Virus record (IMG/VR): IMGVR_UViG_3300049914_000251 | Span: 1-64,000 of that record | Strand: one strand, 5' to 3' | Source: a virus | DNA: 64,000 nucleotides | Shown here: positions 1,653 through 38,985 of the stretch, piece by piece | Layout: each line of letters starts with the position of its first letter | Numbering within the stretch: position 1 is the first letter of the stretch | Program-made: the position numbers and the translations under genes | Notes under the pieces: model-generated | Told to the model about the DNA's origin: nothing | The model's database searches: none | Seen by the model: only the letters and a program-made list of their open reading frames with translations

Positions 1653-2297
1653 TTACTTTATCCTTTCTGCTATCGTGGCTCCCTTCGGAGCCGTTAATTT
1701 ATATGTTATGTCCGCAAACTCCATAAATTCCGGCTGATGCGTCACCATAATCACCTGAATACCCAAACGCTTAGACAACATCTTCAGCAGCATACCCATC
1801 CTCGTAGTGTATTCATCGGACAGATGTGCTAGTGCCTCATCCAGAAATAGCACCTGATCAACCCTGCTACGCATGAATGACAGCATCACTATCTGAAGCA
1901 ATACACCCACCACAGCAGAGATACCGCCTCCACGAGAGTTCAATACATCGGCCTCTACCCCATGTCCGTCCAATAATATGAACTGAGCCGTTATCTGATC
2001 TGCCTTAGGAACCATCTTAATATAAAATACGAAAGGCTCCTGAAACACGGCCTTCAATCCCAGGCTCACTAAACGCTCTATTCTCTCCCGCAGAACGTCC
2101 TGCCTTTCCTCAGACATACTACGAAACAAAGCAGACACCTTGCGCAGTGTGATGTCAAGACTTTCAAGACCCATAAACTGAGTTTGCAATTCCTTACCGC
2201 GCTCAGCGATCTGCTTCGCTCGACCTAAATCCTGCTGGTACTTCGTGTACTCACGCTCCAGCTCGATATCCAAATCTTTAATCTTTAACTTATCCAT
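1653..2297 (-). CDS. SbcC/Rad50-type ATPase, C-terminal half only
   Basis: A 214-residue protein that starts directly in coiled coil (about 1-80) and ends as the C-terminal ATPase lobe of SMC/Rad50 proteins. It has a degenerate signature motif (NSRGGGIS, 120-127), Walker B with D-loop (VLFLDEALAHLSDEY, about 149-163) and an H-loop (VTHQ, 185-188). No Walker A is present. The matching N-terminal lobe with Walker A and zinc hook is a separate gene at 13458-14432. The two probably assemble with the SbcD/Mre11 nuclease at 12126-13100 into a DNA-end-processing complex. The start ATG sits directly after the upstream stop, with CGGAG as ribosome site. Confidence 0.85.
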   Translation of the reverse strand: MDKLKIKDLDIELEREYTKYQQDLGRAKQIAERGKELQTQFMGLESLDITLRKVSALFRSMSEERQDVLRERIERLVSLGLKAVFQEPFVFYIKMVPKADQITAQFILLDGHGVEADVLNSRGGGISAVVGVLLQIVMLSFMRSRVDQVLFLDEALAHLSDEYTTRMGMLLKMLSKRLGIQVIMVTHQPEFMEFADITYKLTAPKGATIAERIK

Positions 2298-2606
2298 CTA
2301 ATGCTCCGACGGAGTAAAATGCTCATCACATGCTTGGCTAGGAAGCGCAAAAGGAGAAATTTTTATAGCATCCTCAGCAAACTGCTTATGCTCTTCTGCC
2401 GTTGCCACATAACCTTCTCTCAACAGCTCCTCCCCGCTCCTAATCCTCTCAGCGACAACATACCTTAAGGCACATGCAAATCTCTTAGATTGCAAGGACA
2501 GCGCCTCAAATTCTTCAGCATACACCGCAAGTTCACTTGCCGCACAGCTCTCAACATCCTGATCATCGAAGTCCAAAGGCCCCAGACCTGGAATATTTAT
2601 TCTCAT
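2298..2606 (-). CDS. Hypothetical acidic helical protein
   Basis: 102 residues, ribosome site AGAGGT. It is mostly helical and acidic, with no zinc or nucleotide motif. It abuts the split SbcC half with zero spacing, which suggests translational coupling and perhaps a linked role. No family recognised. Confidence 0.65.
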   Translation of the reverse strand: MRINIPGLGPLDFDDQDVESCAASELAVYAEEFEALSLQSKRFACALRYVVAERIRSGEELLREGYVATAEEHKQFAEDAIKISPFALPSQACDEHFTPSEH

Positions 2607-2618
2607 AACGCTACCTCT

Positions 2619-3008
2619 TTATTTCATAAATTTTTCAGGGAATAATCTCTTAACGGATTCGAACACGCCGCTGACTGTTTCCTTAGGAACCACCTCTCCC
2701 AGAGTAATAGTACCTACGAGTGTCTGCCAATCAATCTCCTCGCCCTTCTTCGGATCTCTTCCAAGAAGTGCCTTCGCCCAGATGTACAGCTTGCACTTCG
2801 GTATCAAAGGCTCATACTGCGTACACATTCCCTTAACAATGCGTCCGGCGTTCTCGCCCTCACAAATCTTGAACGCAAATATGAGAACGTTACCATAATC
2901 CTTTTTATCAGGGATCACCCCGGTCAATTCAACTTTAAATAGACCTTGCACAGTCGGTTGCTTAGTTCCTACAGTGCTTTTAGGATTGCTACTTTCCTTT
3001 TTGTCCAT
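2619..3008 (-). CDS. Hypothetical protein, possible DNA-binding accessory factor
   Basis: About 129 residues. Start MDKKES is chosen because GGAGG lies 6 nt upstream; this overlaps the clamp gene by 20 nt. After a polar tail, the body (about 25-110) has beta-rich pattern including FKVELTGV, FAFKICEGENAGR and KLYIWAKALLG. That is reminiscent of phage OB-fold or DUF669-like recombination accessory proteins. The resemblance is weak. The position directly downstream of the sliding clamp supports a replication or repair role by inference. Confidence 0.6.
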   Translation of the reverse strand: MDKKESSNPKSTVGTKQPTVQGLFKVELTGVIPDKKDYGNVLIFAFKICEGENAGRIVKGMCTQYEPLIPKCKLYIWAKALLGRDPKKGEEIDWQTLVGTITLGEVVPKETVSGVFESVKRLFPEKFMK

Positions 3009-4158
3009 CTTTGCCTCCATCTTTCCCTTCAGTAATTCTTAACTGATTTAAAATAGCTATGAATCCAGGCTCCGTGAACAGAAGAGGCGTCTTGCGATTC
3101 TTCGTATCAGGACCCAGACTTATTTCCACTGTCGGTCCTGCTATCTGTTGCAGCGTCAACAGCATAAAATTCCAGTTCACACCAATCACCCGCTCGCCGT
3201 CATTCCACGTAAGATCCAGGTCCTGCGTAGCTTTATTGCCATACCTGTCCTTAGCAGCAAGAATCATTTTATTGTCACCTAATGTCATCACTACCAGATT
3301 GGTGTCCACATCAGCGGTCAGCCTTACCCGTTTAATACCGTCAATCAGCTGCTGCCGATCTACCGTGAACTTCTGATTAATCGCCGCGAGAGTCGGCGCT
3401 GTAAATACCTTCTCTATATCTGGAAACTCAGCCGTAGCTTTAGTAGCGATGAAAACATCCACGCCAAACTTGAACACGATATGATTATCCGTCTGAGCTA
3501 TGTAGACCTTCTCATCCTCTGTTATCTTCAAAAACCTTACCAGATCCTCAGTAGCCTGTATAGGTATCTGTATCTTACCGGCGAATGGCACCACCATCTG
3601 ATGCATCCTTATACCATCAGCTGCCTGCATCTTCCCATTAGCTATGCTAATCATAGACAATCCTGGCCTGTACGTGCCCATCGGAGCCGCTACCCGGGTG
3701 CGCTGAACCGCCTCTAGGAATACCTTCCTATCAATATTGGCATATTCCAACTTCTCAGCATCAGGAATATCCGGATAATCACTAGGATCCATGAGTTTCA
3801 GGTTCCACTTAGACCGAGCACAAGTAACCTCGACGTCTGTCGGAATAGCTCCCTTATCCCCAGCACGCCCGCCGGTAACCGTAAATGTCATCACATCGTC
3901 CTCTGCCGACCGGACTATTTCCAGTAAACGCTCTCCAGGAAACACTATCTTGGAATAAGCATCTCCCTTCATCTCTACCAGCGTAGTCTTAGCCACGATG
4001 CTTAACGCCAAATCAGTTGCGATGACCAGTACCGTATCCGGAGGAGTCAACTTGAAATAATAATTCTTTAAGATTGGCTTGCCATCCGTAGACGCCAGTG
4101 CCAACGCTGCCTTTTCTAATAAGCTCTGCGCTACATATTTTTTGATCTTGAATTCCAT
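2989..4158 (-). CDS. dnaN: DNA polymerase sliding clamp (beta subunit)
   Basis: About 389 residues, the usual DnaN length. The N-terminal pattern (KYVAQSLLEKAALALASTDGKPILKNYYFKL in outline) followed by VIATDLALSIV matches domain 1 of bacterial beta clamps, and two further repeats follow. It should form the ring that tethers the family A polymerase at 22854-25451. Clamp-loader-type genes at 33098-34024 and 38161-38916 support a phage-owned loading system. The second of two adjacent ATGs is preferred because AAGGAGG is then 5 nt upstream. The C-terminus ends in a lysine/glycine-rich tail. Confidence 0.9.
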   Translation of the reverse strand: MEFKIKKYVAQSLLEKAALALASTDGKPILKNYYFKLTPPDTVLVIATDLALSIVAKTTLVEMKGDAYSKIVFPGERLLEIVRSAEDDVMTFTVTGGRAGDKGAIPTDVEVTCARSKWNLKLMDPSDYPDIPDAEKLEYANIDRKVFLEAVQRTRVAAPMGTYRPGLSMISIANGKMQAADGIRMHQMVVPFAGKIQIPIQATEDLVRFLKITEDEKVYIAQTDNHIVFKFGVDVFIATKATAEFPDIEKVFTAPTLAAINQKFTVDRQQLIDGIKRVRLTADVDTNLVVMTLGDNKMILAAKDRYGNKATQDLDLTWNDGERVIGVNWNFMLLTLQQIAGPTVEISLGPDTKNRKTPLLFTEPGFIAILNQLRITEGKDGGKDGQKGK

Positions 4159-4168
4159 CATTGCCTCC

Positions 4169-4423
4169 TTAACCTAACTGCTTCACCTGCTCCAGTATAC
4201 CCCTGACCTCAATCAGCTCTGCATCGAGCTGACTTTCAGTAGATGATACCAAAGCAGCAAGCTCCTCGACTGTTTTTACTCCAAATTCCTTTTCGACTTT
4301 CTGCATCTTCTCGGTCAACGCAGACTGACCGGCCGACTTTTCCGCCCCTGCTTTAACGAAAGCAGACTTGTATTTCTCCACTTCCTTTTTTAATGCTACA
4401 AACTCCTGAACTTTATCGCCCAT
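4169..4423 (-). CDS. Small coiled-coil protein
   Basis: 84 residues, almost entirely heptad-like helix rich in Lys, Glu and Ala, with a strong GGAGG site. It sits between the glycosyltransferase and the clamp. It could be a structural linker or a clamp-associated factor; the sequence does not decide. The upstream spacer carries the recurring GGTATAA motif. Confidence 0.65.
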   Translation of the reverse strand: MGDKVQEFVALKKEVEKYKSAFVKAGAEKSAGQSALTEKMQKVEKEFGVKTVEELAALVSSTESQLDAELIEVRGILEQVKQLG

Positions 4424-4444
4424 GCCAAACCTCCGTACTATATC

Positions 4445-5614
4445 TTATACCTTCGCAATATAATTCCACCCAGCACCTTTACCCGTCGTGGACAGAAACA
4501 CCTGGTACAAATCGTCGAACCACTTCTGATACTCCCATTTCACGTTGTCCATCAAAAATCTCTCACCATACTTACGTATAAGGTAAGGATCTAATTTCCC
4601 CACATCTCTGGCTGCTCTGACGAAATCATCTAGAACATCGCACCTAAACCCATTCCTACCATTCACGACGGTCTCCGGAAACACTCCGAAATTAGTTGTA
4701 ATAACTGGAGTACCACAAATCATGGCCTCTATGTGAGTCCCAGCAAAAGGCTCAAGATAAAAAGTGGGCACAAAAACCGCCTTTGCTTTCTTCATAATAT
4801 CAGTACGTTCCTTAGGCTCCACATACCCTATAAACTCACAGTGCTTAGGTAACTTATGCACATCTATTTCTGGATCCACCTGTCCGGCTAAAATTAACTT
4901 AGACCCCACAGCCGCTGTGGCCTTCACAGCCGTCCACACACCTTTCCGAATTATCATCCGCCCTATGTAGAAATAATAATCTTCCTTCTTATCGCAGAAT
5001 TCAAAATCTTTCGGATCGAAATAATTCGGTATCACCCGATCATAATAATTGCCGTTTGGCCCTGTGCCCTCTCTGGGATGTTCACTACCATAGGTATAGT
5101 TCATTATATAAGACGACTCGAAAGCCCTGAAATGTTTCTTATCAGGTTTAGCTGGATACGATCCCCTGTAGCCTATCCCAGGCTCACATGACAAATATAT
5201 CCCCACGGCGTCGTCGATTGGCTTATGATAAAACCCCTGCGCTAACAGAAGGAAATCTCCCGGCCTCTTACGTCTTGCTATCTCCTCTATGCAGGCACCA
5301 TAAAATTTCATGGTGGTCTCGGTACGCTTTGCGTTGAAATCATGCTTAAACTGCCTCTGCTTCCAGTCATACCCCAGTTCGAATCTATTATCTCCTTCTC
5401 CCCACTCCCGACGAACATCAGCCAGCGTATGCGTCTGAATAAACTCAGTACAGGAAACATCGCTGCCCTCACACCCGTAAATGAATACCTCATGCCCCAG
5501 AGACATCAGCATTTTGGTAAGTTTTACAATCTTCTGCGTAAAGGCGCATCCCATATACCGCTCTGTCACCGGAAGATGTACCAGTCCCGGATAGTGAAAT
5601 CTATACTTTTCCAT
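4445..5614 (-). CDS. Glycosyltransferase, GT4-like (GT-B fold)
   Basis: 389 residues from MEKYRF (GGAG upstream). Two Rossmann-like halves are visible. The N-terminal half has an acceptor-type GHEVFIYG strand. The C-terminal donor-binding half has FIGYV, KAKAVFVPTFYLEPFAGTHIEAMICGTPVI in outline, including the EPFxxxxxEA signature of GT4 retaining enzymes, and TNFGVFPE. It probably transfers an activated sugar to a glycan or to phage or host surface material. It overlaps the giant GT/MT fusion gene by 14 nt, so the two form one decoration unit. Confidence 0.85.
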   Translation of the reverse strand: MEKYRFHYPGLVHLPVTERYMGCAFTQKIVKLTKMLMSLGHEVFIYGCEGSDVSCTEFIQTHTLADVRREWGEGDNRFELGYDWKQRQFKHDFNAKRTETTMKFYGACIEEIARRKRPGDFLLLAQGFYHKPIDDAVGIYLSCEPGIGYRGSYPAKPDKKHFRAFESSYIMNYTYGSEHPREGTGPNGNYYDRVIPNYFDPKDFEFCDKKEDYYFYIGRMIIRKGVWTAVKATAAVGSKLILAGQVDPEIDVHKLPKHCEFIGYVEPKERTDIMKKAKAVFVPTFYLEPFAGTHIEAMICGTPVITTNFGVFPETVVNGRNGFRCDVLDDFVRAARDVGKLDPYLIRKYGERFLMDNVKWEYQKWFDDLYQVFLSTTGKGAGWNYIAKV

Positions 5615-8564
5615 AACCATCTCCTTTAAAGATTCCAAAATAAGCCTTGCCTGAACAGGCCCCTGCTACTACTTCGACTTTACCCTCTCCCTTAAGCCAC
5701 TCATTCAGATTAACCTCCGTCAACATCCACGGATGCCCCGGACACGGTAGCAAATCTACCCACTCAAACAGCCTTACCAGCCTACCAGCCGCCTTTGCCT
5801 TCCTTATAACTTCTTTTGGATCCCTCACATGCTGAAGCACATTATAAATCCAAACCTCATCCCATTCGGATTCGTTCATAACCTCAGCTGCAACACATTC
5901 ATACTCTACCCCAGCAGCCTTATACCTTTCACAAACCCATAAAGGAAACTTAATTGGATCTATCGCCTTGGCCTTCTTGTAATTAGCGCACTTCAGAAGT
6001 ATGGAAACAGGACCGGAACCTACATCAAGAACACTCTTACCATGCACGTCGTACCTGTACGGGGTCTTTTCGTTAGGAACCTTATCCAGCCCCATCTTGC
6101 CAGCATATACCAGCTGCTTCAGCTCCTCATTAAGACTGTTAATACACATCTCCTCCCACCACTTACTTTCCCACGCCTGAGCATCTTTCCACGCCCTGAA
6201 GGATCCATCCTTTGAACGTACCGACTCCCCAGCCTCGTTAAATGGATCATACTCATCTTTGGTCAGCACGCCTCTTACAGCCTTAGCTATACTAGATTGG
6301 GACGAGTCCACAAACTGCGGAGTTACCCTAGCAAAATAATTCTCCTTATGACCAAACCTGCCAGATGCCGCATACAAATGTACCACCCTCAGCTTCAACG
6401 AATTTGCTACATCCTCAGTCTCAAACAAATCGTTATAAGACTCCTTCTGAGTTCCACTACCACCTATAGGAACAGGAAGAGCCTCAACCTTATCTGGATA
6501 TCCTTCCACTAAACTGGTAGCAACTCCCGGTCCAGTCGCTCCCCACGGCATGTCCGAATTTTTTAACTCATTACTTGCATTTAAATATGCTGCATTGGCT
6601 ACGTAAGAATTCTGAACCGCGCCCACAAAGGCAGAATTCCACGGATTAGTATTTGGAAGATACTGCCCGCATATTAAAGCTTCCTTGTCACCCAAGTATC
6701 CGGTTATGTCCGCAAACGACAAAGTATCGCAATCAAAACAGAAACCTCCGTACCCCAGAAGGAGATTCCATGTATAATAATCTTTAGTATGACTCCTGAT
6801 GTAATGTGCATCTTTACCAACAAAGGCCGGTACGTCCAACCTCTTCAATTCACCCTTCTCCACATTCAACAAATCATAGTACCTACTATCCTTAAACGTC
6901 ACGCGTTCCATTTGCCATACCTTCACCTTATCGACCTTCTGTGTTTTTTGAGCCGTCCTCACAGCTAAATAATACTGATATGGAAACTCATCCCCTGTCA
7001 CGATAAAGTGCAAAATCTTAGGTTCACTGTCATGCACAAGAACATAATTGCACTTATTAACCCAACCAGTCTCAACTGTTTTATAGCCCGCTGATAGAAG
7101 ACGTGTCTTAGTAGGACCTGTGAAATCCTCCAAGAAAATTATAGGTACTCTTCCAACGAAGCTGCCAAGCCCTTCTACAACTTCAGCCTCAGCGCCCTCG
7201 ACATCTATCTTGAGCATATCAGGCTTTATACCGTTGCTAGATAAATACGCATCCAGCCTCATTGTCTTAATTGTCTCTGAAGAGCCGTCTGGATCTATCT
7301 TACCCTCATGCTCATGATGCCATGACACCATCCTATCGGGAAACATACTAGCCAAGCCCCGGTATTTACTGCCATAACCATACAGTACAGAAGCTCCATC
7401 TTTATCAGACGCTGCTGCGTTAATAGCCACTACATTGGTCAACTTATTCAGTTCTATGTTTTTCATCATGACAGGAAAGTTAATAGCGGATGGTTCAAAA
7501 GCATATACCTTACCAGTAGAACCGACTAACTTGGACGCTAGAACCGTAAAATACCCCACATGCGCGCCCACATCCACAAACACCTGACCCGTCTTCAAAT
7601 TCTTCTTCAAATACTCTGTAGTTCCCGGCTCATATACCTGATGACTCCGGATCTCAGGAGTTATCCAATGACCAGCTCTGAAAAAATACATCTTAGACCC
7701 ACCGGTCACATCGAGCAGCTCCAACTCAGACATCCTTCTCGCATCTGCTCTCGCATCTGCCGCATCCAAATCAATTACGCCAGTATGCAATCCACATACC
7801 TTACGTGCTAAACGAGCATACAGAGAATTTGATTTTGCTACCCATTCAGGAGTAATAGCCCTAAACTTATCCTTCCATGCAAAAGAGAACATATGAAGAA
7901 TATAGCAATCACGCGGAAGCTCAAAAGGAGACTCTTCATAAATACTGGCTGCTTCATAGCCAGTCAGTCCCCCAAGAAATCCGAAATTGACTCCCCTTAC
8001 CGTACCCGGCCACTCATGAGCAACCGTAGTAACTAGCACAGGGCCTGCTGCCGCAAAACGTATCTCCCACGGCTGCTTAAAAATATGCTCTGTAGTAGTC
8101 AGCAACTCTTTAATTGGAGGAGTTCCTTTCTTCCCCAAGAACATGCTGCTGCCGTGATCAAATTCTATCGTGCCCGGAGGAGCATCCATTGGAGTAACTA
8201 AATCATAATCTCCCAGAAGACCGGTCGCATCTTTCAACGAAAGAGTGTCGAGGTCACAAACAAAACCACCTTCCTCATAAAGAATCTTATAGGCGAAATA
8301 ATCCTTAAGATTAGAGGCCTTTGACCAGGCCGTATCCTTCTCAGTACCCGGCTTTGCAACCGTCCTATCCATCGACAAGAACCTGGGAACCTCAAGCATC
8401 TTGACCCGAACTAACTGCTTTACCAGATCAAAATGCAAACCGTCTGGTTTCTCAGAACACCAAAGATCAATTCCCTGCACCTTCTGAGTATTAGCTGCAC
8501 TTAAAACAGCAAGAGCATATGCGTAATTAAAACCGCCTCCCAGATAAATAAAGTGCATTCTCAT
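5601..8564 (-). CDS. Four-domain glycosyltransferase/FkbM methyltransferase/glycosyltransferase/methyltransferase fusion
   Basis: 987 residues with a GAGGAGG site. Domain 1 (about 1-270) is a DXD sugar transferase of the GT32-like type, with YEEGGFVCDLDTLSL and DLD at 104-106. Domain 2 (about 320-510) is an FkbM-type SAM methyltransferase, with VDVGAHVGY at 330-338 and MLKIDVEGAEAE at 450-461. Domain 3 (about 515-760) repeats the sugar-transferase fold with GYGGFCFDCDTLSF and DCD at 611-613. Domain 4 (about 800-987) is a class I methyltransferase with VLDVGSGP at 845-852 and an NVLQHV post-I motif. The GT-MT order occurs twice, which suggests assembly from modules. The likely job is sequential sugar addition and O-methylation of a glycan; the substrate is unknown. 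Confidence 0.88.
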   Translation of the reverse strand: MRMHFIYLGGGFNYAYALAVLSAANTQKVQGIDLWCSEKPDGLHFDLVKQLVRVKMLEVPRFLSMDRTVAKPGTEKDTAWSKASNLKDYFAYKILYEEGGFVCDLDTLSLKDATGLLGDYDLVTPMDAPPGTIEFDHGSSMFLGKKGTPPIKELLTTTEHIFKQPWEIRFAAAGPVLVTTVAHEWPGTVRGVNFGFLGGLTGYEAASIYEESPFELPRDCYILHMFSFAWKDKFRAITPEWVAKSNSLYARLARKVCGLHTGVIDLDAADARADARRMSELELLDVTGGSKMYFFRAGHWITPEIRSHQVYEPGTTEYLKKNLKTGQVFVDVGAHVGYFTVLASKLVGSTGKVYAFEPSAINFPVMMKNIELNKLTNVVAINAAASDKDGASVLYGYGSKYRGLASMFPDRMVSWHHEHEGKIDPDGSSETIKTMRLDAYLSSNGIKPDMLKIDVEGAEAEVVEGLGSFVGRVPIIFLEDFTGPTKTRLLSAGYKTVETGWVNKCNYVLVHDSEPKILHFIVTGDEFPYQYYLAVRTAQKTQKVDKVKVWQMERVTFKDSRYYDLLNVEKGELKRLDVPAFVGKDAHYIRSHTKDYYTWNLLLGYGGFCFDCDTLSFADITGYLGDKEALICGQYLPNTNPWNSAFVGAVQNSYVANAAYLNASNELKNSDMPWGATGPGVATSLVEGYPDKVEALPVPIGGSGTQKESYNDLFETEDVANSLKLRVVHLYAASGRFGHKENYFARVTPQFVDSSQSSIAKAVRGVLTKDEYDPFNEAGESVRSKDGSFRAWKDAQAWESKWWEEMCINSLNEELKQLVYAGKMGLDKVPNEKTPYRYDVHGKSVLDVGSGPVSILLKCANYKKAKAIDPIKFPLWVCERYKAAGVEYECVAAEVMNESEWDEVWIYNVLQHVRDPKEVIRKAKAAGRLVRLFEWVDLLPCPGHPWMLTEVNLNEWLKGEGKVEVVAGACSGKAYFGIFKGDGYGKV

Positions 8565-8574
8565 AACTACCTCC

Positions 8575-9615
8575 TCAGCTCTCTAAGAGAAAAATAGGTC
8601 TGAATCCATACCTGTCAACTGTAGGATGCCACGTATCCACTAATTTCATTCCCGTCTCTTCGGCTACTCTGGCTGCAAACTCGGCCTCCGTAAAATTAAA
8701 CAGCTTCGCCCTGTTAAATGTTCTCCAGCACTCTGCAGAAGTCAAAGGAGACTCGACAAACAACCTGCCGACCTTTCCTCTTACAAGTTTCAAAGAATCA
8801 AACGTCTGCTCTACACCTTTATGAGCCATATCCACATGAAGAACAGACAGCATTAAAACCACATCATAATAGCTATGTAAAAAATATTGCCATTCAGAAA
8901 CACCGCATTTTACCTTAAGATTCTTAATGGTTGCTAAATACCTTGTTATCGCAACCCTGTTCATATCCATATCGATAGCCGTAACATTATAACCCTTACC
9001 CGCTAATGCAAGAGAGAAATAACCCTCGCTACACCCCACATCCAAAACATCACACTGAGGACTTAAACGACTGAGAATATAATCTAAACGGTGCTGACTG
9101 TCCTTCCGCCAGACGCGAAAGTTCTTTACCCTTTCATCATCTACCGGATCATACACGATTGCATCAATGCCGAACACATGATTTATATTCCGAAGTGTCT
9201 GTGCTAATGGAAAATCCTTTGGCATTGGCGGCTTCCCAAAACGCACCAGTTTAACCTCAAGAATAGGATCGATCCCAAGATACCTCATAATAGCTATCCT
9301 GTGATTACCGTCATAAACGTGCACAAAACCAGCCGAGTCAAACCACACCGATACCGGACGACCTTGCTGGCTATAACCCTCACATTTAATTTTCTCATAC
9401 AAATCAAAAATATCCTTCTGATATTTCCTGACCTCCTCGATACTTTTACAATTATGCCACCACAGCCCTCGTTTAATAAATCCCATAGCTATGGCTACAT
9501 ACGGAGAGTTGCTGACATCCTGACCAGCATCATACATGCGCAACGTCGGATATATCCGACTAATTTGTACAGCCTCCGACAACAAACTCCTTCTAATGTG
9601 ATACGTCACTTCCAT
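8575..9615 (-). CDS. ParB-like domain fused to SAM methyltransferase
   Basis: 346 residues from MEVTYHIRR (AGGAGGG upstream). The N-terminal half (about 1-125) has a ParB/Srx-like motif VYDGNHRIAIMRYLG. The C-terminal half (about 170-346) is a class I methyltransferase with VLDVGCSEGYFS, TAIDMDMNRVAI and VVLMLSVLHV. A similar pairing occurs in glycan-modification clusters, where the ParB-like part may bind a nucleotide or act on a substrate; that role is inferred. A shortened relative of the whole gene is at 10228-11143. It ends 11 nt before the giant fusion gene. Confidence 0.8.
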   Translation of the reverse strand: MEVTYHIRRSLLSEAVQISRIYPTLRMYDAGQDVSNSPYVAIAMGFIKRGLWWHNCKSIEEVRKYQKDIFDLYEKIKCEGYSQQGRPVSVWFDSAGFVHVYDGNHRIAIMRYLGIDPILEVKLVRFGKPPMPKDFPLAQTLRNINHVFGIDAIVYDPVDDERVKNFRVWRKDSQHRLDYILSRLSPQCDVLDVGCSEGYFSLALAGKGYNVTAIDMDMNRVAITRYLATIKNLKVKCGVSEWQYFLHSYYDVVLMLSVLHVDMAHKGVEQTFDSLKLVRGKVGRLFVESPLTSAECWRTFNRAKLFNFTEAEFAARVAEETGMKLVDTWHPTVDRYGFRPIFLLES

Positions 9616-9760
9616 TATTGCTCCCTCCTGACTTCCATGTGCCCAGAACATCGTTATCGACGCACCATTCGAAAGCTCCACACGTCTTGCAAATCACAAC
9701 CTCAGCTCCATTAAAAACAGCTTTGACCGTGTTCTTACTGTCGCACTCACCGCACTTCAT
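9593..9760 (-). CDS. Small zinc-ribbon protein
   Basis: 55 residues from MKCGECDS, with GAGGAGG upstream. Two CxxC knuckles (CGEC and CKTCGAF) are spaced as in a zinc ribbon. It overlaps both neighbours: the deaminase by 14 nt and the ParB-methyltransferase by 23 nt. A degraded relative with an in-frame stop is at 50210-50338. Function unknown; such ribbons often bind nucleic acid or protein. Confidence 0.7.
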   Translation of the reverse strand: MKCGECDSKNTVKAVFNGAEVVICKTCGAFEWCVDNDVLGTWKSGGSNNGSDVSH

Positions 9761-10241
9761 TTTGAAGGGCCTCCTCATCATGACGCAGCATTCTCTTCAA
9801 ATCATAATCCTGAAAAGTCTTGGTTCCAATTCCCTCTTCCTGCATGTGAACTGCCTTTAGACCGGCGTTAATTATCATTTTAACGCACATCATACACGGC
9901 TTATCATAAGTAGTACCTGTAGCATGTCGTACGCTGTAAATGTACATCTCACCGCCCACTACGCTCACGCCCGTCCGTGCTGCATTGATTATAGCGTTCT
10001 GCTCAGCGTGCACGCTCCGGCACAACTCGTACCGCTGCCCCGAGGGTATTCCCAACTTCTCCCTTAGACACGTGCCTCTTTCGGTACAATGCTCAGACCC
10101 TCTGGAAGACCCTACATATCCGGAGCTAACTTCCACACCATCCTTGATTATAACAGCTCCAATACTCCTGCGCAGACAGGTGCTCATCTCAGAGGAAACC
10201 TTCGCCCGATTCAAAAAATGTTCAAACTTACTTGGCCTCAT
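9747..10241 (-). CDS. Deoxycytidylate (dCMP) deaminase family protein
   Basis: 164 residues from MRPSKFE with GGGAGGG upstream. The zinc site is complete: HAE at 78-80 and PCMMC with Cys116 and Cys119. The extra CTERGTCLREK region and SSGYVG segment match phage and bacterial dCMP deaminases or ComEB. The expected reaction is dCMP to dUMP, feeding dTTP synthesis. No thymidylate synthase is seen in this window. A cytidine-type or modified-nucleotide substrate is the main alternative. Confidence 0.88.
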   Translation of the reverse strand: MRPSKFEHFLNRAKVSSEMSTCLRRSIGAVIIKDGVEVSSGYVGSSRGSEHCTERGTCLREKLGIPSGQRYELCRSVHAEQNAIINAARTGVSVVGGEMYIYSVRHATGTTYDKPCMMCVKMIINAGLKAVHMQEEGIGTKTFQDYDLKRMLRHDEEALQNEVR

Positions 10242-10824
10242 TATACCCTCCCTCAAAAAGAAAAGTTGAAGTGTTAGACCCGTATCCTGTAGGATGCCAA
10301 ATGTGCGCCAACTTCATTCCCGTCTCACTGGAAACCCTTGCTGCAAAGTCCTCCTCTGAAAAATGAAATATGTGCATAAGTGGCCCTTTCCAAACATCAG
10401 ACGAATTCAAAGGCACCTCAATAAATAACTTACCCACCCGACCCTCAAAAAGCCTCAGCGACCGAAACGTCTGCTCAACACTTTTACGATACATGTCAAG
10501 ATGAAGTACTGAGAACATCAAAACCACATCATAATACCCCATCCCAAAACATTGCCACTCAGAAATGTGGCACTTAATCGGAAGATTATTTATCAAAGCC
10601 AAATACCTGGATACCGCCACACTATCGTAATTGATATCGATAGCCGTAACATCAAAGCCCCGCTCTGCCAGGGCACGACTAAAATATCCTTCGTGACATC
10701 CTATGTCTAACACCCTTCTTCCCTCACCCAACCATCTAAGCACATACTCCAAACGATGCTCACTATCATGTCTGTGCAAAGTAAAAGATTTCACTCTTTC
10801 ATCATCAACAGGCAAGATAATCAA
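10228..10824 (-). pseudogene. Methyltransferase half of a broken ParB-like/methyltransferase gene
   Basis: The frame encodes about 198 residues closely parallel to the methyltransferase half of 8575-9615, including VLDIGCHEGYFS, TAIDINYDSVAV and VVLMFSVLHL. The catalytic part looks intact. The only available start is a TTG at 10824 without a ribosome site, inside the end of the preceding half gene. About 45 codons present in the intact relative are missing at the junction, and the frame shifts there. It could still be expressed by coupling or frameshifting, so it may be a working split enzyme rather than a dead gene. Confidence 0.7.
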
Positions 10825-11143
10825 GTATAGAAAGTCTATGATTACCCTCTAAAATATGCACGGCCCCTGAATTATCAAACCAGACAATTATTTCCCCGCT
10901 ATGTACCCCATCACGTTTAATACTCTCGTACATACCGATAAGCTTATTTTGATACCCCAGCACATCCTCAACAGTTTTACACGTAGTGTGCCACGGATGA
11001 CCTGCTTTTATACGTTCCAAAGCAGCCAGCACATAAGGAGAACGACTAACATCCTCCCCCGCATCATGCATACGCAACGTCGGATGAAGCAGCACACTAT
11101 AACGTAATAAACTTCGTCTGATATCATAATACACAGGCACCAT
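10805..11143 (-). CDS. ParB-like half of the broken ParB-like/methyltransferase gene
   Basis: 112 residues with an AGGAG site. It parallels the N-terminal half of 8575-9615 (RRSLL, PTLRMHDAGEDVSRSPYV in outline, ILEGNHRLSILDYL) and then stops at TGA just after the ParB-like motif. The downstream methyltransferase half is in another frame. This looks like a tandem duplicate with an internal deletion that broke the fusion. The protein may be stable by itself. Confidence 0.7.
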   Translation of the reverse strand: MVPVYYDIRRSLLRYSVLLHPTLRMHDAGEDVSRSPYVLAALERIKAGHPWHTTCKTVEDVLGYQNKLIGMYESIKRDGVHSGEIIVWFDNSGAVHILEGNHRLSILDYLAC

Positions 11144-11151
11144 TTTAACTC

Positions 11152-11967
11152 CTAAAACTTCACAGCTCTCATTCCAAAATGCTGCTTTGAAGTATCAATC
11201 GCTCTAACAGCCCACGCCGGACACTCAGCTCCACGGAACTTACACCCATAGCACATCCGACTCTTGCCCGCAGGCGTAAACTTTCCAGCCTCTATAAGTT
11301 GGATCGCGTCCAGGCACCTTCTCAACACACCCCTCACATCGTAATACTCGAACGGAACTTCTATTATCGGATGCTGCATAAGTGGAGCTATAAAAGCTAT
11401 CCTGCTCACCTTAGCCTTATCCAACGCCGTGAACAGCGCCACGTAAAATAACAACTGGTCCTTATTCAGCCATTCCTTATTGGTCGTAACCTTCATCTCA
11501 AATACTGTTCTCTTCTCGTGGTCAAAGAAATCAGCCGTGCCCGCCAGTTCATGCTCTGTATGACCCGGAAATGGTGCTAGCCCGTATCTCTGAGTTTGCA
11601 GATTCTTATTTCCCGTCAATTCATATCTCAGAAACACCTGCTCTATCCTCGGCACGTACTTTAATACCCTATGCCTGAGCAACTCCCTGTCTGTACTAAC
11701 CCCTTCCTTTGAAAGAGTAGCTTTAGAAAGAACGAGCCACGTTACTCGGTTCTTCTCCAAATACCACTCAAAACACTTCTCAGCATGTTTCTGCATCCAT
11801 CCCCGCTCGCAACCATGTTTGAACCAGGACACTACTAACTTATCACAAACCGCCCCAACCACAAAATTACGATTATTTGGCTGACCCTCTACCCGATCAA
11901 TCCAATCAAGCTTATACTGCCAGGAACATCCCTCAATCTGAGACAGTATGTGCGGACCGATTCTCAT
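11152..11967 (-). CDS. PD-(D/E)XK nuclease, Cas4/RecB-like
   Basis: 271 residues. The core reads GTADFF then VFEMKVTT then a QLLFY helix, the D, ExK and Q elements of the PD-(D/E)XK fold (about 148-180). An N-terminal Cys (SQIEGCSWQYKLDWI) and a C-terminal CYGCKFRGAEC (about 245-256) could hold an Fe-S cluster as in Cas4 and AddB. It probably acts as an exonuclease in recombination and sits next to SbcD and SbcC. The start overlaps the stop of the 51-residue gene upstream by 4 nt (ATGA). Confidence 0.82.
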   Translation of the reverse strand: MRIGPHILSQIEGCSWQYKLDWIDRVEGQPNNRNFVVGAVCDKLVVSWFKHGCERGWMQKHAEKCFEWYLEKNRVTWLVLSKATLSKEGVSTDRELLRHRVLKYVPRIEQVFLRYELTGNKNLQTQRYGLAPFPGHTEHELAGTADFFDHEKRTVFEMKVTTNKEWLNKDQLLFYVALFTALDKAKVSRIAFIAPLMQHPIIEVPFEYYDVRGVLRRCLDAIQLIEAGKFTPAGKSRMCYGCKFRGAECPAWAVRAIDTSKQHFGMRAVKF

Positions 11968-12119
11968 CCCATCTCTCCTCTAACGTCGGTCCACCCACGC
12001 TTCCACGGCAAGTCATAAGTATCTAATCTGTCCGAACCTCTCCACCACTTCAAATCCTCTAATTTAATCCAATAATAAAACCCATCCGGTATCTGCATAT
12101 TAAACAACAAACCATCCAT
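11964..12119 (-). CDS. Small hypothetical protein (51 aa), gap-filling
   Basis: An ATG at 12117-12119 opens 51 codons ending in ATGA overlap with the nuclease start. The product is rich in Trp, Tyr and Asp (for example WIKLEDLKWWRGSD). GGAGG lies 11 nt upstream, slightly far, inside the end of sbcD. Tight packing with both neighbours supports it as a real gene. Function unknown. Confidence 0.6.
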   Translation of the reverse strand: MDGLLFNMQIPDGFYYWIKLEDLKWWRGSDRLDTYDLPWKRGWTDVRGEMG

Positions 12120-12125
12120 TTGAAA

Positions 12126-13100
12126 TTATACCTCCTGCAGCATCTTATGAGCCATCTCTGCCACGTCCGGATCCAAATCTTTCATAGCATCTATCTCTGC
12201 AAGCAACCCTTCCAGCGTAACGTAATCGAATGTTGTATCAGTCAGGCTCTCCAGAAATGTATCTATCTCCTCTTCCTTCTGCTGCTCAGCCTGATACTCA
12301 TCCATTAAATAAACTTCTTCGATAGGCTTAACGTTCTTTAGCTTTATATAATCCACGCTTATCTTCCGTGTACTCTGATCGATCTCGATATAAGCCACTT
12401 GTGGCTGCCTTCGCAAATCATCCCCTGCTATTGAACAGCGAGCGATTCCACCCGGATTAACAAAAACAGTTTTACCTTCCCCGTTCCAATCAGGACTGTA
12501 AAACACATCGTCCGCCACATGCTTATGTCCCCACAGTACCATATCAGCCTTGCCCACCACCTCATGCCAACTTATCGTATCAAAAGGATACGGCTTATCA
12601 TCAAGTACGATGGGCTGATGCGCTATGATAACAGACATATACCTGCCTCTTAGCTCTTTAGAAATACTTGCCCAAACCCCATCAGGTAACTTAGATACCC
12701 CGGGCACGATCAACCATATAATATCCTTCCACTTAGTAACACTGTACGGATGAAGCTTGACCACGCTCGGCATAGAGTCCAAAGCCCCGAACGGTTGCCT
12801 GACCAGCGTTTCAAGATTATCGTCTTTAATATCATGATTGCCTGGAACCGCTATCAACCTGCTAGGAAGCAAATCCGCTACCCACGACAGTACCCTGTTG
12901 GTCAGATCATGAGATACCCGGTACGCCGACTTCTGATGAAATATATCTCCAGCATGTAGCACAACATCCACCTTATACCTGTGTGCTATCTCGGAAACCT
13001 CATTCATCTTAGCTATAACGTCTTCAGCATAAGTTCCGGTACGCCTTGACGGAGGCCTATCTGCTAAATGAGAATCTTGAACCTGCAACAGCTTTAACAA
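12126..13100 (-). CDS. sbcD: SbcD/Mre11-type nuclease
   Basis: 324 residues from a TTG start with GAGGG upstream. All calcineurin-like phosphoesterase motifs are visible in order: DSH (9-11), HAGDIFH, VPGNHD, IIAHQP and GHKH. A C-terminal acidic helical tail could dock on SbcC. With the two SbcC halves (13458-14432 and 1653-2297) it should form an ATP-regulated end-processing nuclease. T4 gp47/gp46 is the classic phage parallel. It overlaps the upstream small gene by 7 nt. Confidence 0.9.
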   Translation of the reverse strand: MLKLLQVQDSHLADRPPSRRTGTYAEDVIAKMNEVSEIAHRYKVDVVLHAGDIFHQKSAYRVSHDLTNRVLSWVADLLPSRLIAVPGNHDIKDDNLETLVRQPFGALDSMPSVVKLHPYSVTKWKDIIWLIVPGVSKLPDGVWASISKELRGRYMSVIIAHQPIVLDDKPYPFDTISWHEVVGKADMVLWGHKHVADDVFYSPDWNGEGKTVFVNPGGIARCSIAGDDLRRQPQVAYIEIDQSTRKISVDYIKLKNVKPIEEVYLMDEYQAEQQKEEEIDTFLESLTDTTFDYVTLEGLLAEIDAMKDLDPDVAEMAHKMLQEV

Positions 13101-13420
13101 TTCTCGACCCTCTTCCTGGCCAAAAAAACCTTAAATCTCTCCAGTTGCCTCTCCCGTGCCGCTTTACTCTGCCAAAGCCAACTCACGCTAAGGCCTAACA
13201 CTCTGAATAAAATAAACATCCCATCTCGATTAATGTTCGTTCGCCAATCTAAAAACCATCTCCGTCCTAATTGAGAACGAGAATTGTACCCAAGATAAAA
13301 ACATCCCGGCAGTCGTTCGGTATCAAAAGAAAACCCCTCGTCATCATTCCACACATACACAAACACGCCTAAAACGCTAAAACCGATCAATTCACCATCC
13401 ACTTCCACACGTTTTTTCAT
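13094..13420 (-). CDS. Hypothetical protein, one possible membrane segment
   Basis: About 108 residues from MKKRVEVDG, with AAGGGTGG upstream; the frame is open further up but earlier starts lack a ribosome site. A hydrophobic stretch (MFILFRVLGLSVSWLW) near residue 80 could be membrane-associated, followed by a basic tail. It sits between sbcD and the N-terminal half of sbcC. No family recognised. Confidence 0.55.
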   Translation of the reverse strand: MKKRVEVDGELIGFSVLGVFVYVWNDDEGFSFDTERLPGCFYLGYNSRSQLGRRWFLDWRTNINRDGMFILFRVLGLSVSWLWQSKAARERQLERFKVFLARKRVENC

Positions 13421-13457
13421 AATAATACCACCCTTCTTAATTTCTTGCGAATCTTTC

Positions 13458-14432
13458 TTAACTTCCATTCTTATCACCCATTGGCCTCTCGCACAGCGGA
13501 CAAACTCCCAACTTCTCCTCAAACTCATGAAGCTCTTTATGCTTCGCCTCCATAAGTTCCTCCGCTGCCGCCACCATCTGGCCCAGCTCTAATACCCTCT
13601 TAATTTGCCTACGTAGGTCGTTCAAGGCCTCAACCATACGATTCAGCATAGCTGCTTTGTCAGAAGCAGCCTCGAGGTCTACTTTAGCTATCGGTGCTAT
13701 CTTCACTTCAACCTTATTCAGAGCTGCGACCCTATCAGTCAACTGACGTAGATCAGTCAAATATTCTTGACATCGAAGAAGATTTGTCATGCTCTTATAA
13801 TAGGATTCTCGCTTTACTTTAGCCTGCTCCAGCAACTCACCACGCCTCTTCAGACTAACAAATTCCTGTACCTGTTTCAACCTATCAGCCAGCTCAGCTC
13901 CCACTGTCTCCTTATCCCGGCTCGTTCTCTTAGCTAGTGTATTAGCGCTCTGCGTTGCCATGTAAAGAATGTTTACCCCGGAAAGCTCTCCCAATATCTT
14001 TGCTACCCGGGGAGAAGTCTCATCAGCCAGAAAAGGTAACGAGAACTGGTTGTGGAAATTAGGAGTAAACTTTATACCAGAACCCAGCGAAATCTCTCCC
14101 ATTCGCATGGCCTTAACAACATCTTCTGGAACTGCTCCACCTGTCTTACCGTATGACCTTACATCATTCCCCACAATAATATCATACTCAGCTATCTTAG
14201 CTGTCTTCTGCCATCTCACGGACACATTATCCTTCTCGATCAAAACAATAGCACTCCTCTTACCCTTAGTAATAAAAGAAGTGCCTGTTTCGTTTTCCAA
14301 TAAAGCGCGCACGGCTCTGATAACAGCCGTCTTACCCACATTAGATTCGCCCACTATCACAGTAAATGGAGCCAGATCAAGCTTCACATCTTGAAGGGAT
14401 TGATACCCCTCTATTTTTAAAGATTTTAACAA
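13458..14432 (-). CDS. SbcC/Rad50-type ATPase, N-terminal half with zinc hook
   Basis: 324 residues from a TTG start with AGGAG. Walker A is GESNVGKT (28-35), a Q-loop-like FHNQFSLPF follows near 130, then coiled coil from about 165 to 305, then a zinc-hook CPLC (311-314). The chain ends right after the hook. The returning coil and Walker B lobe are missing from this frame but present as a separate gene at 1653-2297. Neighbour sbcD lies just downstream. The split at the hook apex is structurally reasonable because both halves meet there. Confidence 0.88.
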   Translation of the reverse strand: MLKSLKIEGYQSLQDVKLDLAPFTVIVGESNVGKTAVIRAVRALLENETGTSFITKGKRSAIVLIEKDNVSVRWQKTAKIAEYDIIVGNDVRSYGKTGGAVPEDVVKAMRMGEISLGSGIKFTPNFHNQFSLPFLADETSPRVAKILGELSGVNILYMATQSANTLAKRTSRDKETVGAELADRLKQVQEFVSLKRRGELLEQAKVKRESYYKSMTNLLRCQEYLTDLRQLTDRVAALNKVEVKIAPIAKVDLEAASDKAAMLNRMVEALNDLRRQIKRVLELGQMVAAAEELMEAKHKELHEFEEKLGVCPLCERPMGDKNGS

Positions 14433-19501: not shown

Positions 19502-20659
19502 TTACCTCCTCTTCCTTAAATACAAGATTAAAATGAAAACCGTCAAAACACCAAGCCACAGCCACACCAAACCCCACAGCCACCGATAATTTGAAGCTGC
19601 TTTTATGACCGGAGTTACTGTAGGCGAAGGTGTTATCGTTACCACAGGAGTCTGACTCGGTGTTATATTTCCACCCGGCGTCGGAGTCACTACAGGAGCC
19701 TCTGTTGGTATTATCGTTACCACAGGAGACTCTGTAGGCGTTATATTTCCACCATTAATCGGAGTCACTACTGGAGGCGGCACATAACCGCCACCACCAG
19801 ACACTGGCGTCGATATAGGAATAGTTTCATTTCCACCGGATGGACTCGGTGTTACCTCAGGAGTAACTTCTGGCGTCACCGTAGGAGTAACTTCTGGCGT
19901 CACCGTAGGAGTAACTTCTGGCGTCACCGTAGGAGTAACTTCTGGAATCGGACTCGGAGTTATCTCAGGAATCGGACTCGGAGTTATCTCAGGAATCGGA
20001 CTCGGAGTTATCTCAGGAATCGGACTCGGAGTAACTAATACCGATGTCGGACAAACGATCGTTCTGAAATTAGCGATGACCGTATAACCGGTAGACACCG
20101 TGAACTCAAACGGATTAAGATAATACGTACCGCCATTTATTGTCCAGCTTACGAACTCACAGCAACTACCAGGCACCGCCTTGATCTCTAATTGAGAACC
20201 TCTGTGTATAGGCCAGTAGAACGGAGTTTCTACCCCCATACCATATACTTCGACGGCACCACAACCACCAGATTTAAGAACAGTCAAATTAAAACAATCA
20301 GGACACCCCGGAGTAATAACTGGAGTAGACGTCGGTGTCGGCGTCGGTGTAGGTGTAGGTGTCGGTGTAGGTGTCGGTGTCGGAATAGGCGTAGGTGTCG
20401 GTGTCGGAGTAGGCGTACACGTCGGTGTCGGCGTCGGTGTAGGCGTAGGCGTAGACGTAGGCGTAGGCGTAGGCGTACGCGTAGGCGTACACGTCGGTGT
20501 AGGCGTACACGTCGGTGTAGGCGTCGGTGTCGGCGTAGGCGTACACGTCGGTGTCGGCGTCGGTGTCGGCGGCGGACACGCTGAAACTGGAGCTGCCGCG
20601 AACATCAACCCCATTGCTAAAACCAATACCATCACACACAGCAATATTTTATTCTTCAT
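19502..20659 (-). CDS. Secreted proline/threonine-repeat protein with C-terminal membrane anchor
   Basis: 385 residues. An N-terminal signal peptide (about 1-27, [17 protein letters not shown] then AAAPVSA) leads into about 85 residues of PT and CTPT repeats. A compact Cys-containing domain (about 118-205) resembles a bacterial extracellular repeat ([18 protein letters not shown]). Then come repeats of the type PSPIPEIT and TVTPEV, and a C-terminal transmembrane helix with RKRR. The layout is that of a cell-surface protein, unusual in a replication region. It may alter the infected cell envelope or be a captured host gene; superinfection exclusion is a guess. Confidence 0.8.
19858..20036 (-). 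repeat. Tandem repeats within surface-protein gene (TVTPEV and PSPIPEIT units)
   Basis: Near-perfect 24-nt tandem DNA repeats encode two successive peptide repeat blocks: about three TVTPEV-type units (19858-19937) and four PSPIPEIT units (19938-20036). The near identity at DNA level suggests recent slippage expansion. Confidence 0.85.
20315..20577 (-). repeat. Low-complexity PT/CTPT repeat tract
   Basis: A tract built from GT(A/C)GG(C/T)-type hexamers on the plus strand encodes alternating Pro-Thr with occasional Cys. It causes long spurious arginine-rich frames on the opposite strand. Length variation between related genomes would be expected. Confidence 0.85.
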
Positions 20660-34032: not shown

Positions 34033-34106
34033 TGGCAGGAGCTGAGAGATTCGAACTCCCGCCTCCACTTTTGGAGAGTGGCGTTCTACCCCTGAACTAA
34101 GCTCCT
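34033..34106 (-). tRNA. tRNA-Trp (CCA)
   Basis: Cloverleaf read on the minus strand: acceptor AGGAGCT/AGCTCCT, D arm GTTC/GAAC, anticodon arm CCACT-CTCCAAA-AGTGG with anticodon CCA, T arm GGGAG/CTCTC, discriminator G, encoded CCA. The first 10 nt overlap the 3' end of the upstream protein gene. Confidence 0.95.
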
Positions 34107-34291
34107 GTCTCCGTTTCCATCGTTACCAATGTCTCGCTTCCTACCTGCTCCCTAGTAACTTTGATACGCCTACCTGTCAAATCCTGTACAAAGTCAACAT
34201 AAGCGTCGAACTCCTCATCAGTTAACCGCTTATTCGGCACCACAGGAGGTTCAACATCAGCTGGTACGAACACCTTCTTAATCCTAATCAT
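34097..34291 (-). CDS. Small hypothetical protein
   Basis: 64 residues, basic strand at the N-terminus then helix and strand. The stop codon TAG lies inside tRNA-Trp, so coding and tRNA sequence share 10 nt. The start overlaps the upstream stop by 4 nt. No motif recognised. Confidence 0.6.
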   Translation of the reverse strand: MIRIKKVFVPADVEPPVVPNKRLTDEEFDAYVDFVQDLTGRRIKVTREQVGSETLVTMETETGA

Positions 34292-34554
34292 TTCAAGAAC
34301 CTCTGAATAAAGTCCCCCACCGAATCTTTAGCTATCCTCGTACCGTCATGAAAAGTATCCATATGCCGGAACAACTTATCCACAGGCGCAGCATCCACCA
34401 AAACCAAAGCTTCCTCTTTTACGGCCTCTAATACCCTATCTGAAAAATCTGATTTGGACTTAATTTCCCCTCTCTCCAGGTCACTCAAATAGTCCTGGAT
34501 TCTGATTCGTAAACTCGGCACTGACACCCCCAAAAAAAACAAATTCTTACTCAT
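34288..34554 (-). CDS. Small hypothetical protein
   Basis: 88 residues, helical after a hydrophobic N-terminus. It overlaps the zinc-ribbon gene upstream by 8 nt. Nothing diagnostic in the sequence. Confidence 0.6.
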   Translation of the reverse strand: MSKNLFFLGVSVPSLRIRIQDYLSDLERGEIKSKSDFSDRVLEAVKEEALVLVDAAPVDKLFRHMDTFHDGTRIAKDSVGDFIQRFLK

Positions 34555-34633
34555 ACTCTAAGTCTTCACCGCACACCGGACAAACCTCTTCACCACCCTC
34601 CAATTTAGTTCCACAGTAAGGACACTCTTCCAT
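34547..34633 (-). CDS. Tiny zinc-ribbon protein (28 aa), gap-filling
   Basis: MEECPYCGTKLEGGEEVCPV then CGEDLEYE: two CxxCG knuckles with a short spacer, a textbook minimal zinc ribbon. A GGA sequence lies upstream at long spacing. It fills the space between two real genes exactly. Confidence 0.6.
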   Translation of the reverse strand: MEECPYCGTKLEGGEEVCPVCGEDLEYE

Positions 34634-34639
34634 ATTAAA

Positions 34640-34906
34640 TTATTCCTTTTTCCCGCTATCCTCTCCAAACGCCTTTAATATCTCATCCGGAATTGCTATG
34701 TGCTTACAGTAAGTGTCCCTGAAATTATCCATTATCTGCGTAAAGATGTTGAACGTGTCTAGATCTAGAAAATCTACTCCTACAGCATTCCTTTCTAACG
34801 ACATGCCAGGCGCTCTAGCTACACGCAGATGTATATGACCGTGCTCACACCGCCAGATTTTAAACTGGCTGGTTTGCATCATAGGACCTTCACCACACTC
34901 AGCCAT
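34640..34906 (-). CDS. Small hypothetical protein
   Basis: 88 residues with AAGGAGG. Mixed alpha/beta with CEHGHIHLRV near the N-terminus, which could be metal-binding, and an acidic tail. It overlaps the sigma-factor stop by 1 nt. Confidence 0.62.
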   Translation of the reverse strand: MAECGEGPMMQTSQFKIWRCEHGHIHLRVARAPGMSLERNAVGVDFLDLDTFNIFTQIMDNFRDTYCKHIAIPDEILKAFGEDSGKKE

Positions 34907-35667
34907 TAAACCTCCTTACCGGATAACTTCTTATTTCTTGTCAGTGACTTTAACAAAACACAGCGTAATCTCCAGTTGGCATGATGTAATGTCTTAGCCG
35001 ACCCCACAAACCCGCCATCAAACCAAACCATATAGGATGAACCGTCAAACTCCACGCCTGTCTTGCCTTTATGAACTATTGCCCATTCCAGTATAGCCCT
35101 CTTCTCAGACAATTCACGTATCCAAAAAGATATTTTTCTCTTGGAAACTCCAAACTGATCTGCAAGTTCCGCCTTATCGATGTTATCTCTTATAGAAAGC
35201 TGCTTTGTAATAGCCATGAACAGCTCTGCCAACTTTCTATCACCAGCCGCCGAGGACAACTTATCATAAATATCCTTAACGTCCTGACTGCACTCCCAAG
35301 TCTCTACCTCATTGTTAGGATCCGGATAATCCAGCTCTACCTCACCATCTGCGGAATCGATAGTCATAGGCAGCTCTCGAAATGCTATCTTACGTCTCCT
35401 CTTTGTTATATTCCATAAACGAGTCCTTACAAAACGCCATACATATGTAGAAGGTGCTCCTTTTGCCGGATCATAGGCTTTCAAATAACCACCATCCACG
35501 TTAAGCAATCCGTCCCGGCCTTTTCCACTTATAAACTCAAGCATCATGTCCTGCACTATATCATCAACATCGCACTCTTTAAAACAGCCCGCTCCCCTGA
35601 CAGCCGTACGAAACTTAGGCGCCCACTCAGTATAAAAATCCTCATAATTAGATGGCATTTCCTTCAT
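34906..35667 (-). CDS. RNA polymerase sigma-like factor
   Basis: 253 residues. Region 2 is visible near 25-110: CDVDDIVQDMMLEFI then YDPAKGAPSTYVWRFVRTRLWNITKRRR in outline, which is the -10 recognition and core-binding helix of ECF-type sigma factors. A helix-turn-helix near 165-190 (DKAELADQFGVSKRKISFWIREL) stands for region 4. The last 60 residues are an extra domain. It probably directs host RNA polymerase to a phage promoter class. Confidence 0.78.
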   Translation of the reverse strand: MKEMPSNYEDFYTEWAPKFRTAVRGAGCFKECDVDDIVQDMMLEFISGKGRDGLLNVDGGYLKAYDPAKGAPSTYVWRFVRTRLWNITKRRRKIAFRELPMTIDSADGEVELDYPDPNNEVETWECSQDVKDIYDKLSSAAGDRKLAELFMAITKQLSIRDNIDKAELADQFGVSKRKISFWIRELSEKRAILEWAIVHKGKTGVEFDGSSYMVWFDGGFVGSAKTLHHANWRLRCVLLKSLTRNKKLSGKEV

Positions 35668-35712
35668 TTACATTAACCTCACCAAAATCTTTTTCATCAT
35701 CCCCTAAATAAA

Positions 35713-35991
35713 TTAAACTCGTTCAAATACGTGAAATATCAAAGACCCGCCCATTAACATAACAGTTCCTATAAAGCGAGCGCCGTCTAAATCCCCATCC
35801 TCTATAGAATGGCCGGTCCCTTTGATTACGAATATGCGCTTCTCTGTGTTACAATGACTACCCGTATTAACCAATGCCCACATAAAAACAAACTCTCGCT
35901 GATTTCCTACCGATAAAACCTTAGCGCCAATAGGTAATTCTATGGTTTGCTCATCGGTAACTTCTAATTGATATTTAAAGATGCTTTCCAC
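35713..35991 (-). CDS. DUF7352-like phage protein
   Basis: 92 residues from GTG with AAGGAGAG. The start FKYQLEVTDEQTIELPIGAK in outline and the later FIGTVMLMGGSLIFHVF match a small beta-sandwich-like family common in phages and named DUF7352. No function is established. Confidence 0.75.
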   Translation of the reverse strand: MESIFKYQLEVTDEQTIELPIGAKVLSVGNQREFVFMWALVNTGSHCNTEKRIFVIKGTGHSIEDGDLDGARFIGTVMLMGGSLIFHVFERV

Positions 35992-36044
35992 TTGCTCTCC
36001 TTTCTATACTCCCCGCAGTGGCAAAGTAGATAATCCTGTCAAAC

Positions 36045-36649: not shown

Positions 36650-36657
36650 TCTCTTCC

Positions 36658-37933: not shown

Positions 37934-37934
37934 T

Positions 37935-38150: not shown

Positions 38151-38160
38151 GCCTTCCCCC

Positions 38161-38916: not shown

Positions 38917-38924
38917 TACCTATT

Positions 38925-38954: not shown

Positions 38955-38985
38955 GAATAGAAGTTTACGAAGACCTATACCAAAT

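Follow-up and report, generated by a model that had tools for sequence, protein, structure and literature searches.

A phage SbcC/Rad50-like ATPase encoded as two separate genes that part at the zinc hook

The virus record IMGVR_UViG_3300049914_000251 from IMG/VR encodes an SbcC/Rad50-like ATPase as two separate genes, one for each ATPase lobe. The window analysed here is the 64,000-nucleotide stretch at positions 1 to 64,000 of this record, which has 113,818 bases (113.8 kb) and is possibly incomplete; all genes and motifs located below in the window are on the minus strand. The two-gene arrangement had been proposed in an initial annotation, and the list of open reading frames (ORFs) of the window gives the same coordinates for both genes and for the nuclease gene sbcD. 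We confirm that observation, and comparative sequence analysis supports its interpretation as a working split at the hook, with assembly of the two chains inferred. It is very probable that the two proteins, here called N and C, are halves of one Rad50/SbcC ATPase that works with SbcD in DNA-end processing, probably with a small helical protein, K, as a third subunit.

The N chain (13458-14432) has 324 aa and a TTG start. It carries the Walker A motif GESNVGKT at residues 28-35 (14328-14351) and a Q-loop glutamine at Q129, continues into coiled coil and, as first described, ends just past the zinc-hook motif CPLC (residues 311-314; 13491-13502), with the stop 10 residues after it. G33, K34 and Q129 are invariant across 54 diverse homologues, and the hook cysteines are kept in 53 of the 54. 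Pfam matches were obtained to AAA_23 (8.4e-8) and AAA_15 (1.3e-10), with the Rad50 zinc hook sub-threshold. The best PDB match of a profile built from the 54 proteins is Rad50 (5f3w, 3aux; E about 1e-14), and the same profile also picks out 1ii8_A, 3qkr_A, 1us8_A and 1f2t_A, the N-half chains of P. furiosus Rad50 crystallised as two chains. The final stretch of a 13-sequence profile matches the ascending half of the Rad50 hook structures 1l8d_A and 6zff_A. An AlphaFold2 model of N has helices at 153-244 and 251-308, interrupted at 245-249, and a loop of low confidence at 112-138; its best Foldseek match is 1f2u_A, with 9a9j_A also found. Much of the N family has a proline 45-75 residues before the hook and further breaks roughly 48 residues apart, and the hook would sit at the apex of the coil.

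The C chain (1653-2297; 214 aa) opens in a long helix, which spans residues 3-85 in an AlphaFold2 model with a mean pLDDT of 95.2. It then presents the ABC signature RGGG (residues 122-125; 1923-1934), the Walker B motif VLFLDE (residues 149-154; 1836-1853) and the switch/H-loop histidine H187, all of which had been noticed before. G123, D153 and E154 are invariant across 54 diverse homologues. The signature in the split family is RGGG or SGGG; the usual form is SGGE/Q. C matches PHROG 15167 (1.5e-28) and, below its cut-off, Pfam SMC_N (1.3e-4). With a 54-sequence profile, the C chains of Rad50 stand at or near the top (3qkr_B at 2.6e-15, 1ii8_B, 1us8_B, 1f2t_B), and the model's best Foldseek matches are the C half of an SMC head and 1f2u_D, with 9a9j_B and 1ii8_B also found. 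Neither protein has the essential motifs of the other; each is one lobe.

The gene at 12126-13100 encodes, as annotated initially, an SbcD/Mre11-type nuclease; it matches Pfam Metallophos (6.7e-12) and retains the active-site motifs DxH, GDIF (GDxF), GNHD and GHKH (GHxH). Between SbcD and K lies a gene for a Cas4-like nuclease (11152-11967; Pfam PF01930, just below cut-off), and a sliding clamp of the DNA polymerase III beta type (2989-4161; Pfam and PHROG matches) is a neighbour in several relatives. By reading of ORFs, the loci L002, L011 and L019 have the gene order K-clamp-C in common and the Cas4-like gene in the same position. Glycosyl- and methyltransferase-like genes fill the interval between N and C in the window. 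Over the whole 113,818-base record, possibly incomplete, we found one match to C, one match to AAA_23, which is N itself, and no other SbcC-type ATPase. A single-chain SbcC, which the initial annotation had named as the finding that would speak against it, is therefore absent from the known part of the genome.

N and C cover complementary parts of one chain: on 3aux_A the N profile aligns to 5-221 and the C profile to 175-368. Their coil arms are unequal, with about 150 residues in N and about 70 in C, which corrects the initial picture. In the AlphaFold2 models the C helix roughly equals the first N helix in length, so that the last N helix is left unpaired. Of the two-chain hook dimer first proposed, the split at the hook is well founded; the hook cysteines, however, are all on N, so C contributes no hook half. 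The crystals 1f2t, 1ii8, 3qkr and 1us8, which are engineered two-chain forms of Rad50, have separate N and C chains forming one head, and this makes the same assembly plausible for the phage proteins. Those constructs were produced artificially and lack most of the coil and the hook, whereas the phage pair is natural and has coil and hook on N; it appears to be a natural version of the crystallographers' hand-made construct with coil and hook added. Homology to Rad50/SbcC was found for the N lobe and for the C lobe, 82 of 88 distinct N proteins have a CxxC at most 25 residues before their end, and an SbcD/Mre11 gene is linked at 12126-13100. Both lobes and the antiparallel coil on one polypeptide, a further mark of Rad50/SbcC, are not seen here, the genes being separate in all phage loci. 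We would assign the split family to Rad50/SbcC by homology, outside the single-chain definition.

A search for other phages with the same split, suggested at the outset, brought many to light. The split is present in Bacillus phage vB_BboS-125, Tunturiibacter phage Tunturi_5, Microbacterium phage Magritte and Microcystis phage Mvi-JY20, in the 485 kb record LR745208, and in over a hundred further loci from scans of IMG/VR. In the collection scans the window's C protein alone as query gave no matches, the alignments A1 and A2, each of six rows, proved too diverse, and closer alignments worked. Loci distinct by C and selected for the presence of SbcD number 79, and in all of these N, SbcD and C are separate genes. 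SbcD usually lies between N and C in this set, chosen as it was for SbcD; the order N-D-K-C (D for SbcD), or N-D-C as first scored, holds in 74 of the 79, and the median gap from N to C is about 1.8 kb. Some operons are so tight that stop and start codons overlap, for example in L104 (N 7982-8884, D 8881-9759, K 9759-10004, C 10001-10612). The 11 kb between N and C was given correctly for the window but is atypical against this median; other cases have 90-108 kb between the two genes, the halves in Tunturi_5 being 108 kb apart. No phage ORF with both lobes of this split family was found over 159 loci, nor any single-chain SbcC in 48 related virus records. N is present in 44 of 50 virus records with C, and, judging by coordinates, in four of the six records without it the contig breaks off at the cluster. 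A Magritte-type subclade, whose existence amends the initial annotation, is without CxxC, and the hook is thus not indispensable. A profile scan of genome contigs yielded four true loci, all in MAGs; six further matches were false hits to ABC-F proteins or transporters. Matches of the C profile to two ORFs in the loci L157 and L158 proved to be Mre11-Rad50 fusions or fragments and not split C.

Quick trees were built separately for the C lobe and the N lobe with 16 single-chain controls and L157 as outgroup. In both trees a single branch sets the split proteins apart (SH-aLRT 98 for C and 97 for N), a result compatible with one old origin of the split. A single old origin is not proved, since split queries gathered the split sets, the branches are long and the trees are unrooted; fission of a joined gene and lobes never joined both fit.

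The two lobes also occur joined in the reverse order on proteobacterial megaplasmids, a form absent from the initial annotation. A 635-aa protein of Pseudomonas amygdali has matches in 21 plasmid records; the plasmids, of 250 kb to 1.3 Mb, belong to Pseudomonas, Vibrio, Variovorax, Alteromonas, Aeromonas, Bosea and Methylorubrum, among others. All seven proteins examined (546-663 aa) have the order C lobe, N lobe, coil and hook, with a CxxC 7-19 residues from the C-terminus. Such a chain is predicted to lead from the C arm by way of the two lobes to the hook, with the head joined and the tip open. A K-like coil gene lies directly upstream of the fusion in all six cases whose neighbours were read; two or three of the six have profile support, and the motif is visible by eye in all. 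An SbcD-like gene lies downstream in the same six neighbourhoods; in Variovorax it has the motifs and is clearly supported by the profile, and in several others it has no nuclease motifs. A close search of viral contigs found no such permuted fusion. Of all the sequence evidence that N and C would make one ATPase, the reverse fusions weigh most.

The third gene, K, also went unremarked in the initial annotation, which its presence in the set corrects. In the window it encodes an 84-aa helical hairpin (4169-4423), identified by a K profile and by linkage and proposed as a third subunit. K proteins mostly have 77-94 aa and, read from their sequences, two predicted helices flanking a turn of the form F/Y-G-V/C-x-S/T-x-E-E. 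The gene lies between SbcD and C, or directly after N in rearranged clusters (CDNK loci), and the profile has a match in every one of the 79 distinct loci described above. Because 21 of its members had been added by position, the profile was tested by halves; the K between N and C was recovered in 34-38 of 40 held-out loci, and all further matches were again to K genes, in two to three loci whose genes stand in another order. Against the PDB it matches generic coiled coils only. It also matches E. coli SbcC at 527-603, right after the hook, and among 28 single-chain SbcCs it matches the post-hook coil in 6, compared with 2-4 for control coil profiles. As the controls did almost as well, we do not claim homology between K and the start of the descending coil in SbcC.

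Other explanations of the two genes fare poorly. A sequencing or assembly error that shifted the frame and broke up a single gene would be conceivable in a single metagenomic record; it is hardly credible here, with 11 kb of other genes between the halves and the same split in the named isolates vB_BboS-125, Tunturi_5, Magritte and Mvi-JY20. Nor do the genes look like fission remnants of a decayed SbcC drifting towards loss. The distance of 11 kb in the window and the hook-less subclade would suit decay, but the frames are intact, the catalytic residues are invariant in 54 diverse sequences, the break point recurs in 82 of 88 N proteins and the split in 79 distinct loci, and reverse-order fusions exist on megaplasmids; the initial annotation had likewise argued against decay, and we regard it as most improbable. 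More serious, if still very unlikely, is the idea that the two are independent ATPases and not partners, with N as a P-loop protein of OLD/RecF-like type and C as an ABC protein of its own. N does match OLD-family and RecF profiles, and the two genes can lie 90-108 kb apart. Against this, Rad50 is the best PDB profile match for both on large alignments and outscores OLD/RecF for N; a Pfam search found in N no Toprim domain typical of OLD/RecF-type ATPases; and N has a hook, unlike single-chain, hook-less ABC heads. Each lobe, moreover, is without the other's essential motifs, and the two co-occur, share operons and are found fused C to N.

The alternative with the most weight concerns K, which might be a bystander small gene beside a real two-chain ATPase. 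Its product is a low-complexity coil whose profile matches coiled coils generally, and its mapping to the post-hook coil is no better than that of controls. Its presence in 79 of 79 loci, the held-out recovery, also where K follows N in rearranged clusters, and the K-like genes upstream of the permuted fusions speak against a bystander, which we consider unlikely. Gene linkage points to K as probably a third subunit of the complex.

In the complex of N, C and SbcD that we favour, N would supply Walker A, the Q-loop, the ascending coil and, at its C-terminus, the whole zinc hook, and C would supply a short coil arm, the signature, Walker B and the H-loop. Non-covalent association of the two would produce a single ABC head whose coil root has two strands. 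A pair of these heads would sandwich ATP and carry an SbcD dimer, and one zinc clamped between the CxxC tips of two N chains would link the arms. K may pair with the distal N coil beyond the reach of the short C arm. The predicted role of the complex is DNA-end processing in phage replication that depends on recombination, with RecA and the sliding clamp as neighbours. Counted against this explanation are the unequal N and C coils, the low-confidence loop at 112-138, the RGGG/SGGG signature, the hook-less subclade, the several megaplasmid SbcD-like partners without nuclease motifs and, for K, a tie to the ATPase through gene linkage only.

The split family resembles SbcCD/Mre11-Rad50 (E. coli SbcCD, archaeal and eukaryotic MR, T4 gp46/47, T5 D13/D12) in both ABC lobes, the coil, the CxxC hook, the SbcD nuclease partner and the neighbouring recombination genes. 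It differs in having the lobes on separate chains, a hook located at the end of a chain instead of within a loop, arms that are short and unequal, the extra K gene and the RGGG/SGGG signature. Fusions of the Mimivirus R555 type, with the nuclease and a single-chain Rad50 in one protein (PMC3175470), and that of L157 are likewise viral or plasmid rearrangements of the same complex, in the opposite direction. The relevant passages of a work on jumbo phages (PMC7824862) describe split Pol III alpha and split RNAP beta and beta', and treat SbcC only as conserved, with no mention there of a split; these polymerases are similarly single-chain enzymes encoded by separate phage genes, although the enzymes are other ones. 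Our search of the open-access literature, with subscription papers and preprints outside it, found no report of a split Rad50 or split SbcC.

We give even weight for and against a broader reading, in which phages and megaplasmids would share a class of Mre11-Rad50 with a three-chain arm (N, C and K), an open tip at which the hook ends a chain, a single origin and later re-joining of C to N. The covalent turn at the hook would then be dispensable, since the chain is split there and would later have been re-joined C to N on megaplasmids. Explanations of Rad50 and SMC proteins have signals pass between head and apex through the two arms of a single chain. With a natural family whose arms are separate chains cut at the apex, and a sister form joined at the head, the part of the covalent hook turn in tethering and in coupling ATP to the coil would be open to direct test; the family also offers structural biology two-chain Rad50 systems that are small and already at hand. 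Public phage and plasmid annotations of these proteins as 'exonuclease', 'ATPase' or 'chromosome partitioning protein ParA' can be corrected, and K added as a candidate MR subunit.

Across the family, the coil of the N chain (the Rad50/SbcC N lobe with its coil and terminal CxxC zinc hook; 13458-14432, minus strand, in the window) varies in length between members by steps of about 48 residues, and its proline breaks are concentrated at about 60, 107, 157 and 200 residues ahead of the hook, as if the coil had been assembled from helical units. No CxxC occurs near the end of the N chain in Magritte-type relatives (loci L004, L029, L030 and L031) or in L069; the zinc hook may have been lost there or may never have been present.

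Homing-endonuclease-like genes, of the HNH/AP2 type or GIY-YIG with NUMOD3, directly follow N at four loci (L101:4423-6015, L024:11056-11514, L126:7589-8203 and L001:7098-7670); that of L101 is in frame with N, downstream of the hook. Genes of this kind may have brought about the fission in the first place. On proteobacterial megaplasmids, Rad50-like fusions have the permuted order C-N (L247 and L249-L254), and several have SbcD-like neighbours that lack nuclease motifs.

The 695-residue SbcD (the Mre11-type nuclease partner) of L075 (704-2791) and L079 (3322-5409) is interrupted directly after its GNHD motif by an insertion that looks like an intein, beginning with CVSDDTEAL and ending in TGN, followed by S.

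Elsewhere in the window, a cluster of glycosyltransferase-like and methyltransferase-like genes (4445-11143) lies between recombination genes and contains two similar copies of one methyltransferase architecture (8575-9681 and 10228-11143). A protein rich in TPTP/TPSP repeats (19502-20659) probably carries a signal peptide as well as a membrane anchor at its C-terminus. The 26 tRNA genes span 34033-53123, 21 of them in one array (51471-53123).
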